Shown here: piece after piece, positions 24,817 through 34,262 of the stretch
Numbering within the stretch: position 1 is the first letter of the stretch
How the letters are laid out: the number at the start of each line of letters is the position of its first letter
From: Beggiatoa alba B18LD
GTDB taxonomy: Bacteria > Pseudomonadota > Gammaproteobacteria > Beggiatoales > Beggiatoaceae
NCBI RefSeq assembly: GCF_000245015.1
Contig: NZ_JH600070.1
Span: forward strand, 372,001-436,000
DNA: 64,000 nucleotides
Direction of reading: 5' to 3'
Notes under the pieces: model-generated
The model's database searches: none
Seen by the model: only the letters and a program-made list of their open reading frames with translations
What the model was told of the DNA's origin: nothing
Program-made: the position numbers and the translations under genes

Positions 24817-25739
24817 GAACCGATTTGAAATGTTTAAAAAGAAGCGATTCGTTTAATCATGAGTCTGATAAAACACAGTTTCAGTTTAGCATTAGCATTC
24901 TCAAGAGTCCGTTCAAAGTTCTTAACTAAGGACTTACATCGCTCAACCCAAGCATTAGAACGTTCTACTACCCATCTTGCTTTAACAGGTACAAAGCCTG
25001 TCTTACCTTGTGCTAACTTTTCTTGCTTATTGGGCTTGGGAGATAACTCAAACTGGATTTTACTCAGAATATCAGGATAAATTTTTTCTAACGCTTCCTG
25101 AATACGCACAGGATGATAGCCATTATCCAAGAGAATTGTCGTTTTAGGCATCTCTAAAGGTTTGTTCCTGAAGTAATCGATATTCTCCTTGAACAGCTCA
25201 ATCAATCCTAGGTCATCATTGATATTGGCTTTTGTACAGCGTGTAAACAAGGGCAAGCCTAAACTATCAACGGCTAAGTGTCTTTTAATTCCATTGGTAG
25301 CTTTGTAAAAGCAGAAGCCTTTACTTTGACGACTCGCCAGACAAGTATTTTTCACCGCTTGGGAATCTACTATGATTAGGCTTGTATATTGAGCGTTTTT
25401 TTTGATTGCGTGCGGGCATTTTCATGTAAGCCTATCATCAGTTTATCGATAACTCCCGAAGCCCGCCATTGTTTATAATGCCAATAAACCGTTGAATAGG
25501 GAGGGAAGTCTTTAGGAAGGTCGCCCCAATGGCAGCCATTTTTGAGCTGATAAAGCATTGCATCAAATAGCAGGCGATAGCCCCATTTATGCGGACAGGT
25601 AAGCTTTTTTTTGGGCAATAACGCATTTAAGAGGGGTTCAACCACTGCCCATTCTGCATCTGTTAGGCTACTTGTGTAAGGACTCTTTTTGTTTTGTTTT
25701 TTCATCTTTTACATTTTATCTTAGACTTCAAATAGGTTC
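24817..25739. mobile_element. IS5-family (IS427-group-like) insertion sequence
   Basis: This 923-bp element has ends that read GAACCGATTTGAAATG (left) and, inverted, GAACCTATTTGAAGTC (right). TATA flanks it on both sides (24813-24816 and 25740-25743) as a target duplication. It encodes one DDE transposase in two overlapping frames on the minus strand. The bases after the right TATA are GAACCC, so the target already resembled the element end. Only one copy lies in the window. Confidence 0.9.
24834..25705 (-). CDS. IS5-family transposase, two frames joined by a likely -1 frameshift
   Basis: The first frame (25705-25376, 109 residues) holds the N-terminal DUF4096-type region: SSLTDAEWAVVEPLLNALLP and YQLKNGCHWGDLPKDFPPYS. 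The second frame (ending at 24834) holds the catalytic part: IIVDSQAVKNT (first Asp), TILLDNGYHP (second Asp) and RWVVERSNAWVERCKSL (Glu). The frames overlap at a run of eight A residues near 25394-25402. A -1 slip there reads QSKKNAQYTSLIIVDSQAVK and joins them without a stop. This is the usual expression strategy of the IS427 group, so the transposase may be active. Confidence 0.88.
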
Positions 25740-26457
25740 TATAGAACCCACCATGATCAAAATTACTGCGGGTAAATTCCTTGCGGGCTATAACGGCGGA
25801 GACCCTGACGAAAAACCCATACATGCGGTTAATCTCACCCGCGATTTTTATATTGGACAGTACGAAGTAACCTTTGCAGAATACGACTTATTTTGTGATG
25901 CGACAGGACGGGAAAAGCCTCACGATGAAGGTTGGGGACGCGATAAACGCCCAGTGATTAATGTGAGTTGGCAAGATGCAACTGATTATGCGGCGTGGTT
26001 AAGTGAATTGACCAATAAACGCTACCGCTTACCAACCGAAGCTGAATGGGAATATGCCGCGCGAGGCGGGACAAAAACGACTTATTGGTGGGGCGATGAC
26101 ATTAAGCTGAATATGGAAAACTGCTTAGATTGTGGCGATACATATGCAAATCAAACCGCTCCTGTTGGTTCATTTACCGCTAATCCTTACGGTTTATATG
26201 ATATGACTGGCAATGTATGGGAATGGATACGCGACTGGTACTCATCTTATAGTCGTGACCCCAAAACAGACCCTTACGGCTCTATGATAGGCTCTTATCG
26301 CGTCATTCGTGGCAACAGTTGGGAAGACAACTCACGCCGTTCTCGCCCTACATTTCGCGGATATCATGAACCTGAAAAGAAAACATCTTACTTAGGATTT
26401 AGGCTCGTACAAGAGCTTGATAATCAATAAAATTATGTTGTCAGCATTATAAAAAGG

Positions 26458-27380: not shown

Positions 27381-29189
27381 TTGGAAAAATCTTACAATAA
27401 AAATATACACTTACTCTATAGTCCTACCTTAGCTTGTAACCTTGGTTGTCAATACTGTTACCTTGGCGGACAAACCAGCATTGCACCCATCAAAAAAGAC
27501 GCAGAAAGAGCTGTCAGCACCTTAGAATATGCCTTAAAAAAATGTAGCGAAGAAAACATATTACCGTTTCATATTTCCCTACACGGAGGAGAAGTTACCC
27601 TCCTTGCTGATAACATCCTTGAAGACCTATTTAATCTCATTAAGCAACATTACGTTACAAACTTTGATGAAATCAATGCACTCGGTCATAAAAAATCTAA
27701 CCCTCATATAAAAACAAATTTGTATCGATTTGCAAATCAATTCGATTTGATGAAAAAACATAAGGTTTCTATCAGTGCCAGTATTGATTTACCGCTTTTT
27801 ATGCACGGAAAATACAGAACGACAAAAGGCGGAAAAGATTGGCTTAACTTAACGATAGATAATATAAAACTCCTTTCACAATACCCTTACAGCAAAAAAA
27901 TATCGTCAACCATTTCTAGCGAACATATCGAGCATATTGACCAAATGATTCAAGATATTTGGTTTATACATCAAGAATTAAATTTCGATATGACCAATTT
28001 TAATTTTATGTTTGCCTTTGAATCGGCGTTAAACAGTATTGATAAACAAGATAAAGTACTCACACCCGCCTCAAAAGAAGAACAATTATTTTTATATCAA
28101 AAACTGAAAGAAGCGTTTACGGGCACGGAATTAGAGGAAGGATTTAAACGAAATTGGTTTGATGAATTTAAACCGTCTTACTGTACAAATGCATTCAACT
28201 GTGGCGAAAAATTTTATTTATTACAAAGTAATGGCTCTGTTTATTCTTGTGTTAGAGGTCAGGGCATAGAAGAGTTTTATTACGGTAATATCTTTGAAAG
28301 CTCCGTACAAGAAATATTGGATAACGGCGCAAGAAAAATCAGTGAAATTCATCAAAAATACGGGATGAATGCTGACTGTTCAGGCTGTAACAACTTATTA
28401 ACCTGTAACACAGGATGTGCTGTTGTAAAATTTCAACGTTCAAGCGCGAAGTCTTATACTTGTGAATTACAAAAGGAAATCTATAAAGACAATCCTTATT
28501 CTTATCCAGCGTCTCCAGAAGAGGAACAAAAAGCCTATTCAAAATATTACACAAGAGAGATGCACCCTTATTTAATTGAAAAACAGGCAATAGAACCTTC
28601 TTTAGTTTTTCCGAATGATTTAAACGAAAATAAAAACTTTTTGTTAAATTTGATAGAAGAAGATGAAGTATTACAAAAACTTTATAGTAATAAGTCTTTT
28701 ATACTTGAGCTTAATGATGAGGTTTTAAATTTAGAATCTCAAATCTTAAAAACGGATAATGATTTTTATACCTTATCTTCAGAAGATAAGATTATTATTC
28801 ATTTTCCTGTGGATTTGATGACTGTGAATTGTGACGAAACCGTAAAAAATACGCTTTATCTACAAATGCTCAACCATAATTTTGTTATTTATGGAGATGA
28901 AAAAAGGAGTAAACAACAGCATTTATTTACTTATCAGATATACAGCTCAATGTTGAAAAAAAGCACAGTTTTAGGCGACGATTACTTTATGTTTGACCTA
29001 AAAGAACTTATTTATTTACATAAAGAACTTTATGAACAGGATGTTTTAAATAACCTATTTTTTACGACCTCATTTTTAAGAGATTATCATTATAACAAGC
29101 AGAGAAATAATGCTTTTTATCATATACAGGCAGTGAATTTACCTTTTCAAAATTTTGAGTTTTTTTATCTCAATGAAAGAGAGGATTAA
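27381..29189 (+). CDS. Radical SAM/SPASM protein, candidate peptide-modifying enzyme
   Basis: This 602-residue protein holds the radical SAM cluster motif CNLGCQYC at about residues 19-26, the SAM-binding SLHGGEVTLL and, at about residues 330-365, a SPASM-type cysteine array (CSGCNNLLTCNTGC, then YTC). That architecture is typical of maturases of ribosomally made peptides and of sulfatase maturases. About 200 residues follow the SPASM region, including an acidic helical part with no motif I recognise. The start is TTG, as no in-frame ATG lies upstream before a stop. The next gene begins 3 bp after its stop and is a small protein with a poly-Asn tail, the likely substrate. The whole stretch is AT-rich. 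Confidence 0.88.
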   Translation: MEKSYNKNIHLLYSPTLACNLGCQYCYLGGQTSIAPIKKDAERAVSTLEYALKKCSEENILPFHISLHGGEVTLLADNILEDLFNLIKQHYVTNFDEINALGHKKSNPHIKTNLYRFANQFDLMKKHKVSISASIDLPLFMHGKYRTTKGGKDWLNLTIDNIKLLSQYPYSKKISSTISSEHIEHIDQMIQDIWFIHQELNFDMTNFNFMFAFESALNSIDKQDKVLTPASKEEQLFLYQKLKEAFTGTELEEGFKRNWFDEFKPSYCTNAFNCGEKFYLLQSNGSVYSCVRGQGIEEFYYGNIFESSVQEILDNGARKISEIHQKYGMNADCSGCNNLLTCNTGCAVVKFQRSSAKSYTCELQKEIYKDNPYSYPASPEEEQKAYSKYYTREMHPYLIEKQAIEPSLVFPNDLNENKNFLLNLIEEDEVLQKLYSNKSFILELNDEVLNLESQILKTDNDFYTLSSEDKIIIHFPVDLMTVNCDETVKNTLYLQMLNHNFVIYGDEKRSKQQHLFTYQIYSSMLKKSTVLGDDYFMFDLKELIYLHKELYEQDVLNNLFFTTSFLRDYHYNKQRNNAFYHIQAVNLPFQNFEFFYLNERED

Positions 29190-29192
29190 ATA

Positions 29193-29627
29193 ATGAGTCA
29201 ATTACAAAAAATAGCTTTTACGATAGATAGATTTCTTAACTCTTTGTCGATAACAGATTCTGAGAAAAGATTGAAAATAGAGAAATATCTTGTAGGTTGG
29301 CTTTATAGCGAAAGAGATTTTAAAAATTTTGTTATTTATCATCGAAAAGCACTGTTTTGCTATCACTATAAAACAAGAATAAACAGTTTTCTTTTGTCTG
29401 ATGCAACGGAACAAGAAACTATCTTTTGTAACGGCAATAAAATATCTGTTATTAATAACATGGTTGATTTTACACAACGCTCAGGTATTGTTATGTTAAG
29501 TTCTCTATACCTATCTTCTTTCACATCTTTTCCCACTGAAAACCGTTTCAGTGTCGGGCTTAGTAATAATAACAACAATAACAATAATAATAACAACAAC
29601 AATAATAATAATGGCAGTAATGGGTAA
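29193..29627 (+). CDS. Small protein with a C-terminal tract of 16 asparagines; candidate RiPP precursor
   Basis: This 144-residue protein has a helical N-terminal region (IAFTIDRFLNSLSITDSEKR and following) and ends with FSVGLS, then 16 consecutive Asn and GSNG. A GAGG site precedes the ATG, and the gene lies 3 bp after the radical SAM gene and 6 bp before a membrane protein gene. The Asn codons mix AAT and AAC (nine or more alternations are not one pure triplet run), which argues for selection on the amino acid rather than fresh slippage. A leader-plus-repetitive-core layout next to a SPASM enzyme fits a precursor peptide. Its length is large for a precursor, so another role is possible. 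Confidence 0.65.
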   Translation: MSQLQKIAFTIDRFLNSLSITDSEKRLKIEKYLVGWLYSERDFKNFVIYHRKALFCYHYKTRINSFLLSDATEQETIFCNGNKISVINNMVDFTQRSGIVMLSSLYLSSFTSFPTENRFSVGLSNNNNNNNNNNNNNNNNGSNG

Positions 29628-29633
29628 TAAAAT

Positions 29634-30131
29634 ATGGTTAATAGAAAACCTTTACATTTTAGATATAATCATAAAGATCTAAATAATGTAAACCTTAAAT
29701 TTAGACACGTATTTATATTTTTTATTGTTATCTTTGCTTTTTGCAGCAACCTGCCATATCCACATCCATTCTTATTATTTTTATTCATATGTTTTATTAT
29801 AATTTATCCACTGTATCTATCACATAGAAGAGCAATTCCATATAAAATATATATAGAACAACGATATTTTGTTTGTGGAAATACACTTTTATATTATAAA
29901 GATATTACTAAAATACTCATTACCAATTCGGATATATCTATTTACTCAACTTGTAATCCTAAGATTTTTAAAATAGAAAAAGATTTGTTTCCTACAAATG
30001 CCAGAAAACCAGAAAAGATTATTAATAATAAGAATAAAAAATTTAACTCAGTCGTTGATAAAATTATCAATAATATCCTTAAGGTTTCTTCAGTACCAAT
30101 TGAAGACCATCGCACAGTTCCCCCCACTTAA
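29634..30131 (+). CDS. Small membrane protein of the radical SAM operon
   Basis: This 165-residue protein has two adjacent hydrophobic segments (HVFIFFIVIFAFCSNLPY and FLLFLFICFIIIYPLYL), then a basic stretch and a soluble C-terminal domain with beta-like text (YKIYIEQRYFVCGNTLLYYK). The layout resembles two-helix proteins with a PH-like domain but no family is claimed. The 6-bp gap from the poly-Asn gene makes co-transcription almost certain. It could be an export, immunity or anchoring partner for the peptide; this is inference from position. Confidence 0.65.
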   Translation: MVNRKPLHFRYNHKDLNNVNLKFRHVFIFFIVIFAFCSNLPYPHPFLLFLFICFIIIYPLYLSHRRAIPYKIYIEQRYFVCGNTLLYYKDITKILITNSDISIYSTCNPKIFKIEKDLFPTNARKPEKIINNKNKKFNSVVDKIINNILKVSSVPIEDHRTVPPT

Positions 30132-30285: not shown

Positions 30286-31026
30286 ATGATAGACATCATT
30301 GAAATTTTTAAGCGTTCTGCTCAAGGGGCAACACAACCCTATATTTGTCGTGGTAGCGATGGCAATACTTATTTCGTTAAAGGTAAGAATGCTGGAGCAC
30401 GTAGTTTGATTTGTGAATGGATAGCAGGATGTTTAGCAAAAAACTTACAGTTACCAATTGCACCATTTTCTATTGTGAATGTATCTGAGCATTTAATCAC
30501 CAGTGAAGAATATAGAGCATTAGGTACAGGACTTGTCTTCGGCTCGCAAAAAAAAGCAGGTATTGAAGAACCCAGAAATTTACTCCCAACTTTTTATAAC
30601 GATATTCCTATTGCGTTACAACAAGATATTTTTGTATTTGATTGGTGGATTAGAAATATGGATCGGACATTGTCTGAATATGGTGGAAATGCAAATTTAT
30701 TATTAGAAGAACAGAATAATCAGAAACATATTTTTATCATTGATCATAACTTGGCATTTGATTCAGACTTTTGTGTACATGATTTCATGGCTACGCATAT
30801 TTTTAGAGAACAAGGCAGACACATCTTTGCTGATAAGCAAAAACAAATTATTTATAAGCAAAGATTTAATGACGCGCTTCAAGATTGGGAAAATATTTGT
30901 AGTATGATTCCTCATGAATGGTGGTTTATTGATGAAGAACAAACCTTAAATGTTGATTTTGATAAGACACTCGCTTATCAGCAATTACTTGCTTATCAAT
31001 ATGATACTTTTTGGGACGTAATATGA
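30286..31026 (+). CDS. HipA-like kinase-fold protein (HipA_2 type)
   Basis: This 246-residue protein matches the small HipA-related family: YFVKGKNAGARSLICEWIAG near the N-terminus, FDWWIRNMDRTLSEYGGNAN (catalytic-loop-like RNMDR...GGNAN) and FIIDHNLAFDSDF (metal-binding Asp). It lacks the N-terminal domain of classical HipA. It is coupled to a DUF3037 gene by a 4-bp ATGA overlap (31023-31026). This pair recurs in bacteria and is suspected to be a toxin-antitoxin or stress module; the target of the kinase is unknown. Confidence 0.85.
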   Translation: MIDIIEIFKRSAQGATQPYICRGSDGNTYFVKGKNAGARSLICEWIAGCLAKNLQLPIAPFSIVNVSEHLITSEEYRALGTGLVFGSQKKAGIEEPRNLLPTFYNDIPIALQQDIFVFDWWIRNMDRTLSEYGGNANLLLEEQNNQKHIFIIDHNLAFDSDFCVHDFMATHIFREQGRHIFADKQKQIIYKQRFNDALQDWENICSMIPHEWWFIDEEQTLNVDFDKTLAYQQLLAYQYDTFWDVI

Positions 31027-31451
31027 AAAAAATTGTTTGTCAGTATGCTGTTGTGCGTTTTATGCCCATGATTGAAACAGAAGAATTTATTAATATTGGG
31101 GTTATATTATTAGCACCCCAACAGCGTTTTTTTGGGTTTAAATTAGTAACAAAGCGTGTAGGACGTATTAGGCATATGTTTGGTAAAAAAGTACGTGATA
31201 CTTATCGATTTGCGAGAAAAGCAATTCTTGAAAAAGAGTTGTCTGGATTTAAAGAAATTTTACAAAAATATTGGCAAGAAAACTGTTCAGATATAAAGGC
31301 AAGTGATTTTGCAAAACGCCAGTTTTCTGAGTTTATTCGTCCTCGGGAAACGATGATACGTTTCAGTGAATCTAAAGTTATTTTATCTGAGGATGAAGAA
31401 AAAGCTTTAAATGAGATTTTCCAGTTTTATGTTGAGCGAGAGCTCAAATAA
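31023..31451 (+). CDS. DUF3037 family protein, partner of the HipA-like protein
   Basis: This 142-residue protein begins KKIVCQYAVVRFMPMIETEE and continues FINIGVILLAPQ, the characteristic start of DUF3037. The ATG at 31023 overlaps the upstream stop, so translation is coupled. The function is unknown; the constant pairing with a HipA-like kinase suggests it is the antidote, regulator or substrate of that protein. Confidence 0.85.
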   Translation: MKKIVCQYAVVRFMPMIETEEFINIGVILLAPQQRFFGFKLVTKRVGRIRHMFGKKVRDTYRFARKAILEKELSGFKEILQKYWQENCSDIKASDFAKRQFSEFIRPRETMIRFSESKVILSEDEEKALNEIFQFYVERELK

Positions 31452-31759: not shown

Positions 31760-32887
31760 TTAACTCGCCTTAATAAATTCCTTAGAATTTTTAGGATTAC
31801 GAAACACAAGCGGGGCTGCGTTACTGTTTATCTGTTCTCGAGAGTTAATCACTTGCATGATTTTTTCGTGTTCGGGCGAGAGACTGCAAACAGGGTCAGT
31901 GTTGGTCGGGTCGCCTGTGAATAGGTAGGCTTGACAGCGACATCCACCGAAATCTTTCGTTTTTTCAGGGCAAGAGCGACAGGGTTCTTTCATCCATTCG
32001 TCACCACGAAACCAGTTAAATGCTGGGGATTCGCGCCATATCCAGTCGACGCTGTGGTCGCGGACATTGGGAAATGTCATATTTGGCAGTTGGCGGGCTG
32101 CGTGGCAGGGGAGGGCTAAACCGTCGGGGGTGATGGTGAGAAATACCGCGCCCCAGCCGTTCATGCAGGCTTTGGGACGTTTTTCGTAGTAGTCGGGGAC
32201 GACGTAGTACAGTTTCATTTTGCCTTTAAGTTTGGCTTGATACTCGTGGGCAATGGCTTCGGCAGTTTGCAGTTGGGCAAGGGTTGGTAGTAAGTAGTCG
32301 CGGTTGACCCATGCCCAGCCGTAGTATTGGGTGGTGGCGAGTTCTACGTAATCGGCTTGTAGTTCTACTGCTAATTGAATGACTTGTTCAATTTGTTCAA
32401 TGTTTTGGCGGTGAAGTACAAAGCAGAGTACCATCGGGTAGCCGTTTTTTTTCACTTCTCGTGCCATGTCAAGTTTGTGTTGAAAGGCATCCGTTCCTGC
32501 AATGAAGTCGTTAAGTTCTTCACTGCTGGCTTGAAAGCTGACTTGTATGTGGTCTAGCCCTGCGTCTTTAAAGGCTTTAACCCGTTCTGCATCCATGCCA
32601 ACGCCTGAGGTTATCAGGTTGGTGTAGTAGCCCATGGCACGGGCTTCGCGGATTAAGATTTCTAGGTCTTGTCTAACGAGTGGTTCTCCGCCTGAAAAGC
32701 CAAGTTGTGTCGCACCCATGGCGCGGGCTTCGCGGAAGACTTTGAGCCATTCTTCTGTATTTAGCTCGTTTTTGGTTTTGGCAAAATCTAAGGGGTTTGA
32801 GCAGTAGGGACATTGTAGGGGACAGGCGTATGTCAGTTCTGCGAGTAGCCAGAGGGGTTTTGCGTTATTTGATACTAATCCAGCCAT
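31760..32887 (-). CDS. pqqE: PqqA peptide cyclase
   Basis: PqqE is a radical SAM/SPASM enzyme that, with the chaperone PqqD, forms the Glu-Tyr carbon-carbon bond in the PqqA peptide, the first step of pyrroloquinoline quinone synthesis. The cluster motif [13 protein letters not shown] lies near residue 22, [11 protein letters not shown] follows, and the C-terminal auxiliary-cluster cysteines include CMNGW, LPCHAA and [18 protein letters not shown]. At 375 residues it is normal length. It overlaps pqqD by 23 bp and is the last gene of pqqCDE. Confidence 0.97.
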
Positions 32888-33140
32888 GTTCTTGTGCTGC
32901 CTTTAGAAATTCATGAACATCTTGCACGATAGCCTCCCCCCCTTGGGGGAATGCGGTTTGTAGGTCTTGCACAATGTCACTGACTGTGCGTTGCCCATTA
33001 CATCGCTGGAGGATTTCGCCTGCGGTGGGGTTGAGTTGTACCATGCCTTCGGGGTAGAGGATGACAAAGCATTGTTGGGCTTCTTCCCATTGAAAGCGGT
33101 GCAGGGGGGCGATGCTGATAATGTGATGGTTTTCTATCAT
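32865..33140 (-). CDS. pqqD: PQQ biosynthesis peptide chaperone
   Basis: This 91-residue winged-helix-like protein binds PqqA and delivers it to PqqE. The family text [32 protein letters not shown] and a C-terminal [11 protein letters not shown] is present. It overlaps pqqC by 4 bp (ATGA type) and pqqE by 23 bp, so the three are tightly coupled. Confidence 0.95.
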
Positions 33141-33877
33141 GGTTGTTGGGGAATATTGAAGTAGGGAGGCATATCAGCGACGTAGGCGAGGTGCATGGCA
33201 TCGAGCATCGTCCATAAAACATCGAGTTTAAATTGGAGGATATTGAGGGCGCGTTCTTGTTGTTCGCGGGTGGTGAAGTAGTCTAGGGTGACTTGTAAGC
33301 CTTGTTCAACATCGCGTCGGGCTTCGGTAAGACGTTTGCGGAAATAGAAGTAGCCTTCTTTGTCTATCCATTCGTAGTATTGTGGCCAGTTGTCTAGGCG
33401 TTTTTGGTGAATTTCGGGGGCAAAGAGTTCAGTTAGGGAGGAGCAAACAGCTTCTTGCCATGGGGCTTTACGGGCGAAATTGACGTAGGCATCAACGGCA
33501 AAGCGGACACCTGGTAGGACATATTTAAGGGAGGTGATGTCTTCGCGGGTCATGCCGCAGGCTTCGCCGAGTCTTATCCATGCTTCGATACCGCCTTCGC
33601 TGTCGCCTTGTCCGTCGTGGTCGAGGATGCGTTGCACCCAACCGCGCCGTACTTCGCGGTCTGGGCAGTTTGCCATGACGTTGGCATCTTTAATGGGGAT
33701 GCTGATTTGATAGTAGTAGCGGTTGGCAACCCAGCCTTGTACTTGTTCTTTGGTGCATTTACCGCTGTTCATGGCGATGTGAAAGGGGTGATGGATATGA
33801 TAATACGCACCTTTGGCGCGGAGTTTTTCGGTAAATTCTTCACGACTCCACGGTAAACGGTTTTCTAGTTGTGTCAT
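33137..33877 (-). CDS. pqqC: Pyrroloquinoline-quinone synthase
   Basis: PqqC is a cofactor-free oxidase that carries out the last ring closure and eight-electron oxidation to PQQ. The 246-residue protein has [20 protein letters not shown], the [17 protein letters not shown] stretch and ILDHDG. The ATG at 33877 has a strong AAAGGAG site; an upstream in-frame start at 34003 would overlap the preceding gene. pqqA and pqqB are not adjacent, and I looked for a short pqqA-like peptide between 33878 and 33960 without success. Confidence 0.96.
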
Positions 33878-33947
33878 GGTATAAGCTCCTTTGGGGGTAA
33901 AAAGGGAAATTTTAGCAAGATTTTTTATAGTAGAGCGGTTTTGCCAT

Positions 33948-34262
33948 TTAACCGCCACCACGTTGATAGGCTTGGTGAAATTGGCGTATAAAATCGTGCA
34001 CAAAACGGGGGGAATAGCCTTTAAATGTCAGGGTAATATGTGTTACGGGTAAACAAATCAGGGCAATGCGTCTTTGTGTTTCGGGAGACAGTGTTATCGT
34101 GAGTTGTTGGTTATTTTCTTGACGTGTAATCGTATTACCTTGTTTTTGATAGAGGCAGTCGTTAAAAGCTTGGTGAAATGTGCGGAAGAAATCATGATGC
34201 GAAATGCTCATTTCATAGCAATAAGTCATCATGTTTTCTGTCGCTAGGTAAGGGTTAGACAT
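33948..34262 (-). CDS. Hypothetical protein upstream of pqqC
   Basis: This 104-residue protein starts [20 protein letters not shown] and ends in [18 protein letters not shown]. Its start overlaps the end of the DUF6976 gene by 8 bp, and its stop lies 70 bp upstream of pqqC. The middle reads as beta strands ([20 protein letters not shown]). No family is recognised. The position suggests it is co-expressed with the DUF6976 protein and perhaps pqqCDE. Confidence 0.65.

Follow-up and report, generated by a model that had tools for sequence, protein, structure and literature searches.

Radical SAM/SPASM enzymes paired with asparagine-tailed proteins in bacteria and phages point to an undescribed kind of protein-tail modification

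The cassette and its surroundings

The window, a stretch of 64,000 nucleotides from Beggiatoa alba B18LD, contains three closely spaced genes on the plus strand. The first (27381-29189, with a TTG start) encodes a radical SAM/SPASM enzyme of 602 residues, whose C-terminal domain of ~200 residues (28590-29186, plus strand) serves as the family marker. It is followed after 3 bp by the gene for the partner protein (29193-29627, plus strand), which has 144 residues and ends in N16-GSNG; this C-terminal tract (29565-29624, plus strand) is the proposed site of modification. After another 6 bp comes a gene for a membrane protein of 165 residues (29634-30131, plus strand). Simple hydropathy places two hydrophobic segments near its N terminus, at residues 19-37 and 45-63, ahead of a soluble part. 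A preliminary description of this DNA had reported the same three-gene layout, Asn-rich end, two-helix protein and gene spacing, and each proved exact on re-examination. The tail has 17 Asn codons, 16 in the run and one in GSNG, comprising 11 AAT and 6 AAC. When the window genome (4,265,146 bases) was scanned for eight consecutive Asn codons, nine overlapping matches were obtained, all within the cassette tract.

Two genes before the cassette lies an FGE-sulfatase (formylglycine-generating-enzyme-like) gene (25672-26430; Pfam, 209 bits), the cluster of which did not recur at related loci in ORF clustering. Two consecutive ORFs on the minus strand (24834-25705) resemble, by eye, an IS5-type transposase in two frames, and similar DNA occurs in several places in G001, a genome of the same genus. 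Past the cassette, a HipA_2 kinase-like gene and a DUF3037 gene (30286-31451) overlap by 16 bases and match the PADLOC candidate defense proteins PDC-M66A and PDC-M66B. The minus strand from 31760 to 34003 carries genes that by eye are pqqE-, pqqD- and pqqC-like, in a block 83% identical in G001.

The enzyme

The window enzyme passes the cut-offs of two SPASM models, TIGR04085 (37.4 bits, cut-off 27) and Pfam SPASM (24.5 bits, cut-off 21.5), and scores 27.5 bits with Pfam Radical_SAM, just below the cut-off of 29.5; a phage member of the family reaches 45.6 bits with the latter. The radical SAM motif CxxxCxxC is present as C19, C23 and C26, which are cysteine in all 19 rows of the family alignment that reach this region. 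Eight further cysteines (C268, C274, C290, C333, C336, C342, C346, and C361) are conserved in 20/20 rows and align with the auxiliary-cluster ligands of the anaerobic sulfatase maturases (anSMEs), the pattern of a twin-cluster SPASM protein with two auxiliary 4Fe-4S clusters.

The structure model of the enzyme (pLDDT 86.6) has its closest solved fold in anSMEcpe (Z 28.7, rmsd 3.4, 335 aligned residues), which is the best PDB match (4K36 to 4K39) both by sequence (E 2.5e-21) and by fold; the Foldseek and VIA match lists span residues 4-376. The two share the same eight auxiliary-cluster cysteines, and an anSME acts on a protein rather than on a released peptide, as is proposed here. They differ in other respects. 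The window family has the extra C-terminal domain, its partner is an Asn-tailed protein and not a sulfatase, and the third auxiliary Cys, followed by Asp in anSMEs, is followed by V, P or H. In anSMEs this Asp has a role as a base. With TIGR03942, the model for anaerobic sulfatase maturases, the window enzyme scores 71 bits and the Campylobacter phage member 82, against a cut-off of 349.45.

The best NCBIfam match is the dynobactin maturase DynA (NF041298), at 75.5 bits for the window enzyme and 96 for that of locus L021, with a cut-off of 450. In dynobactin the beta carbon of an Asn takes part in a crosslink, and in three-residue cyclophanes (triceptides) an aromatic residue lies two positions before the linked residue. 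Compared with the substrates of such cyclophane-forming SPASM enzymes, the bacterial Asn tracts lack an aromatic residue: none occurs inside or after the first tract Asn in 14/14 bacterial tails, and only L021 and L025 (Y) and L023 (F) have one immediately N-terminal to the Ser before the tract. In the phage proteins described below, the aromatic residue follows the Asn.

Among phage families, phrog_1802 (radical SAM domain-containing protein) matches residues 6-594 of the window enzyme (E 7e-47) and gives the Campylobacter phage enzyme 475 bits; no function or substrate is attached to the model. It is broad, matching 66 of 398 Pseudomonadota genomes in hits that mostly lack the C-terminal region, and the C-terminal domain was therefore used as the marker. 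No description of a SPASM family that modifies Asn tails was found in NCBIfam, Pfam, PHROGs, PADLOC or the open-licence papers searched, and PMC8743553 concerns other radical SAM genes. As far as these sources show, the family is new among SPASM maturases.

The partner protein

In its structure model the partner consists of a folded domain (residues 1 to ~90), a disordered linker and the Asn tract, with pLDDT of 81-93 in blocks up to residue 90 and mostly below 52 beyond. The protein has no match in Pfam, NCBIfam, PHROGs or PADLOC, nor any among plasmids. For the fold of the domain, the best PDB comparison gave a Z of 4.2 with unrelated rows close behind, and a comparison with viral structure models gave nothing with E below 0.001. 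Among 40 relatives of the window genome, two weak matches to the small protein apart from itself (E 0.008 and 0.014) were deemed due to chance; one of them has three internal stops.

Related loci in bacteria

A survey of 369 genomes of the class found the enzyme in three, the window genome and two others, both of which have an adjacent gene for an Asn-tailed protein. A single-sequence scan of genome contigs gave no match, whereas an alignment-based search with these three enzymes as query retrieved 14 loci, L015 to L028, with identities of 39 to 57%; L018 and L027 represent the contigs of L013 and L014. By record titles and tree labels, the 14 belong to Thermodesulfobacteriota (five), Myxococcota (four), Pseudomonadota (four) and Bacillota (one), and include the named isolates Archangium violaceum (L015), Desulfogranum japonicum (L020) and Pseudoalteromonas sp. 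CIP111854 (L023). An adjoining Asn-tailed ORF is present at 13 of the 14 loci, and at the last (L028) the contig ends inside the enzyme gene. The 13 partners have 125 to 159 residues (136 in L022 after an over-long start was trimmed), and each tail opens with 7 to 18 consecutive Asn followed by Gly. The preliminary description had held that homologs of the enzyme lacking any adjacent Asn-rich or repetitive small gene would speak against its view; none of the complete bacterial loci is of that kind, but a divergent phage locus, L076, considered below, has no fiber with an Asn run.

None of 37 other bacterial radical SAM loci, comprising eight of the window genome and 29 matches to phrog_1802, has a gene with an Asn run at its end; one ORF, in L044, has an internal NNNN, and no other NNNN lies in the last 30 residues. 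Since the flanks of these controls were ~1.5 kb and the partners in L022, L023 and L026 lie up to 3 kb off, a distant partner could escape this count.

The enzyme tree contains two supported bacterial clades (100/99 and 98/96), one with the window, L015 to L019 and L028, the other with L020 to L027. Tail and enzyme vary together between them. The six complete tails of the first clade have a single Asn run and Gly, with the extra SNG in the window alone, and all eight of the second have Gly-interrupted Asn runs, such as N10-G-N3-G-N2-G. An enzyme motif follows the same division, being CVRGQG in seven first-clade rows and CPRGQS in eight second-clade rows; five phage rows have CHRSQ or CHRTQ. 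The leader, i.e., the region before the Asn tract, has a mean identity of 23% (minimum 10%, 91 pairs), compared with 50% (minimum 39%) for the enzyme, and the two sets of identities are correlated (r = 0.90, with 0/9999 permutations as high), while the tail remains Asn. By these comparisons the pairing is real and conserved, and it behaves like that of an enzyme and its substrate.

A membrane gene is found in 14/14 complete bacterial loci, including the window. Some of these genes were masked by antisense ORFs in the ORF calls and were recovered by tblastn. One family comprises the proteins of the window and of L015, L016, L017 and L018 (the window protein is 31% identical to the L018 member over 77 residues) and a second all eight of L020 to L027; L019 encodes a 202-residue membrane protein without detected kin. 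Among the members scanned, no Pfam family reached the cut-off. The position of the gene varies: L015 to L018 have it upstream of the enzyme, in L022, L023 and L026 it separates the enzyme from its partner, and in the remaining loci it follows the partner. The membrane proteins of L020 to L027 (e.g., L021:9397-10119) have a KKPxKG-like stretch between terminal hydrophobic segments. Their layout is reminiscent of the GIDE family.

By ORF clustering, which had missed the membrane genes, no further gene cluster is common to at least three loci, and the same approach, which misses genes, detected no peptidase or transporter family common to at least three. Because neither a peptidase nor a transporter recurs in this clustering and membrane genes do, the partner looks like a tailed folded protein and not a classical secreted peptide. 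This alters the reading of the locus as a modified-peptide system, with which the preliminary description began. The pairing of enzyme and Asn-rich partner stands, and as in RiPP systems a candidate precursor is encoded beside its modifying enzyme (at 13/14 loci, the 14th being cut), but the partner does not resemble a classical peptide precursor, and members of the family also occur with phage tail fibers.

Phage homologs and tail fibers

Full-length homologs of the enzyme (34% identity, 97% covered) are found in Campylobacter Mu-like phages, namely on a plasmid record of Campylobacter coli and in phage CAM-P21, where they lie within the tail module. The order of the module is fiber, a 211-residue protein, enzyme, a DUF1353 protein, one more protein, and sheath. 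The fiber preceding the 211-residue gene ends in an Asn motif in 14/14 contigs: NNNNY in nine, GNNF in three, GNNS in one and CNNNNN in one. The GNNF and GNNS ends have two Asn only, and 12 of the 14 have an aromatic residue after the Asn. Apart from the motif the C-termini differ, and by eye these fibers have about four kinds of body; the ORF of the L032 fiber is cut and lacks its start. Among 336 distinct ORFs of at least 100 residues, taken from the 14 phage contigs and from 28 loci with a shared fiber domain, NN within the last six residues occurs in 16, which are the 14 fibers and two of the 322 others.

The common fiber N-terminal domain, present at these 28 viral loci, allows fibers with and without the enzyme to be compared. 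Two are cut; of the 26 complete fibers, the Asn motif ends 7/7 that are accompanied by the enzyme and 0/19 that are not, where the seven lie within the set of 14, near-identical ends are shared by 11 of the 19, and the comparison is among related phages. Three of the enzyme-less loci (L091, L099 and L102) have less than 1.3 kb after the fiber, L102 being too short to show an enzyme; the 211-residue gene, which elsewhere starts ~10 bp after the fiber, was not found in any of the three. Overall this gene is present at 7/7 enzyme-bearing and 0/19 enzyme-less loci, and the fiber end, the 211-residue gene and the enzyme may be swapped as a single block. The 211-residue protein (L029:5351-5986) corresponds to phrog_10241, which has no function given; it is perhaps a fiber chaperone or a substrate adaptor. 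Two loci retain the fiber end beside an altered enzyme reading frame: in L079 (6790-8582) the gene is broken into two ORFs next to a GNNF fiber, and in L039 its frame seems to shift near the end next to a GNNS fiber.

The exception among the phages is L076, from a contig of 96.7 kb, with a clear family member (35% identity to the window enzyme, with the C-terminal domain matched) and no fiber ending in Asn. An ORF of 34 residues, 611 bp upstream of the enzyme, ends in CTNNSNH, possibly by chance. A further contig of this kind was not found.

Other viral SPASM enzymes served as controls. The search gave at least 44 viral loci, nine in the family and 35 with other, distant SPASM enzymes; among the matches listed, the 35 include no gene with an Asn-run end (0/35) and no copy of the C-terminal domain of the family. 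Two ORFs at these loci have NNNN in their last 30 residues: that of L130 is antisense over the enzyme match, and that of L136 overlaps the enzyme match and has its run well upstream of the ORF end. The opposite case, a tail without the enzyme, is represented by L112, the only stretch among the viral contigs that matches a pattern of eight Asn codons followed by Gly and then a stop-like codon. There an unrelated phage gene (L112:4617-5987, minus strand, 456 residues) ends in NNNLNNNNNNNNG, and no radical SAM gene was seen by eye in the surrounding 6 kb. An Asn-Gly tail can thus occur without such an enzyme in view.

Distribution and origin

The cassette is rare. A search with the C-terminal domain in 398 genomes of the phylum matched the window genome alone, and in the other genome of the genus, G001, no cassette match was found among the best 40 of 133 candidates, its flanking genes being scattered there. 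A plasmid or a virus as the source of the window cassette was considered and rejected, as the sole near full-length enzyme match among plasmids is the Campylobacter coli record, and a viral-contig scan with the first three bacterial enzymes confirmed 0/145 candidates. Horizontal spread would fit the rare and patchy distribution.

The same patchiness could be taken to mean that the genes merely travel together on mobile DNA and that the tail is a product of slippage or a neutral linker, an explanation that the absence from G001 and the possible exchange of phage fiber end and enzyme as one block would suit. It is nevertheless very improbable. AAT and AAC codons are mixed in 14/14 bacterial tails, the window included, at loci of 35 to 67% G+C, so repeat slippage is rejected as the origin of the tail, in agreement with the earlier judgment that fresh slippage was unlikely in the window. 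Furthermore, the tail has been retained where the leaders have diverged and the gene order has changed, and Asn ends occur on different fiber bodies.

Proposed mechanism

Whatever the chemistry, the Asn tract is likely to be the site of modification. The fuller proposal, to which we give about an even chance, is that the enzyme recognizes the fold of its partner and oxidatively modifies the C-terminal Asn tract, the three genes making up a protein-tail modification cassette. Substrate recognition by SPASM enzymes is usually through a leader. Here the enzyme would recognize the folded domain of the partner and work on the disordered C-terminal tract, with the Asn residues as substrate. The reaction is proposed more tentatively. 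It may be an oxidation that starts with removal of a hydrogen from the beta carbon of the Asn side chain, in which the two auxiliary Fe-S clusters would carry electrons off, as in anSMEs, and the product might be dehydro-Asn or a link between neighboring residues, repeated along the tract. Because an Asn run lacks thiols and aromatic side chains to pair with, the ordinary options would be dehydro-Asn or bonding to a backbone or carboxamide nitrogen. In bacteria the product would be kept on a carrier that the third gene links to the membrane, and in phages at the C-terminal end of the fiber. That a single family with a C-terminal Asn substrate serves both the membrane-linked carrier in bacteria of several phyla and the fiber ends of phages is a view that the comparisons favor slightly.

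The tract could instead be an unmodified tail for docking or recognition, the enzyme altering another residue of the partner or fiber. This would explain why the tract is the only element found to be common to bacterial partners and phage fibers, but by eye the bodies of partners and fibers have no common candidate target residue, and in bacteria the place of the leader is already filled by the folded domain; the explanation is therefore considered unlikely.

A second alternative keeps the tract as substrate and changes the chemistry, so that the enzyme would epimerize tract Asn from L to D without crosslinks, giving an alternating tail in the manner of polytheonamide. A homopolymer requires no partner side chain for this. 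The YydG/EpeE and proteusin epimerases are likewise radical SAM enzymes able to modify one nearby peptide repeatedly along its length, according to PMC5682303, although here the tail is a homopolymer on an unfamiliar folded domain. The same source describes an extra Cys as the hydrogen donor of YydG, removal of the beta hydrogen by anSME, and auxiliary clusters that likely move electrons. Outside the clusters, no Cys of the window family is invariant in 20 rows, and the fold of EpeE is far less similar (Z 15) than that of anSME. The best candidate is C484, present in 14 of 19 rows; as these include 13 of the 14 bacterial rows, it keeps some standing as a hydrogen donor in bacteria. Epimerization is accordingly judged improbable, and oxidation is the favored inference, on account of the beta-hydrogen removal and electron-moving clusters of anSME and the want of an invariant Cys like that of YydG.

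Significance

The SPASM maturases whose products are known read specific residues, e.g., Cys, Ser or aromatic residues. The family described here seems to act on a run of one amino acid in which the carboxamide is the only side-chain group, so the product should be of unfamiliar chemistry. If the proposal is true in phages, it would mean a post-translational radical SAM change, encoded within the tail operon itself, to a receptor-binding structure. The pairing of enzyme and Asn tail across bacteria and phages, as read from their sequences, points to a form of protein-tail modification that has yet to be described.
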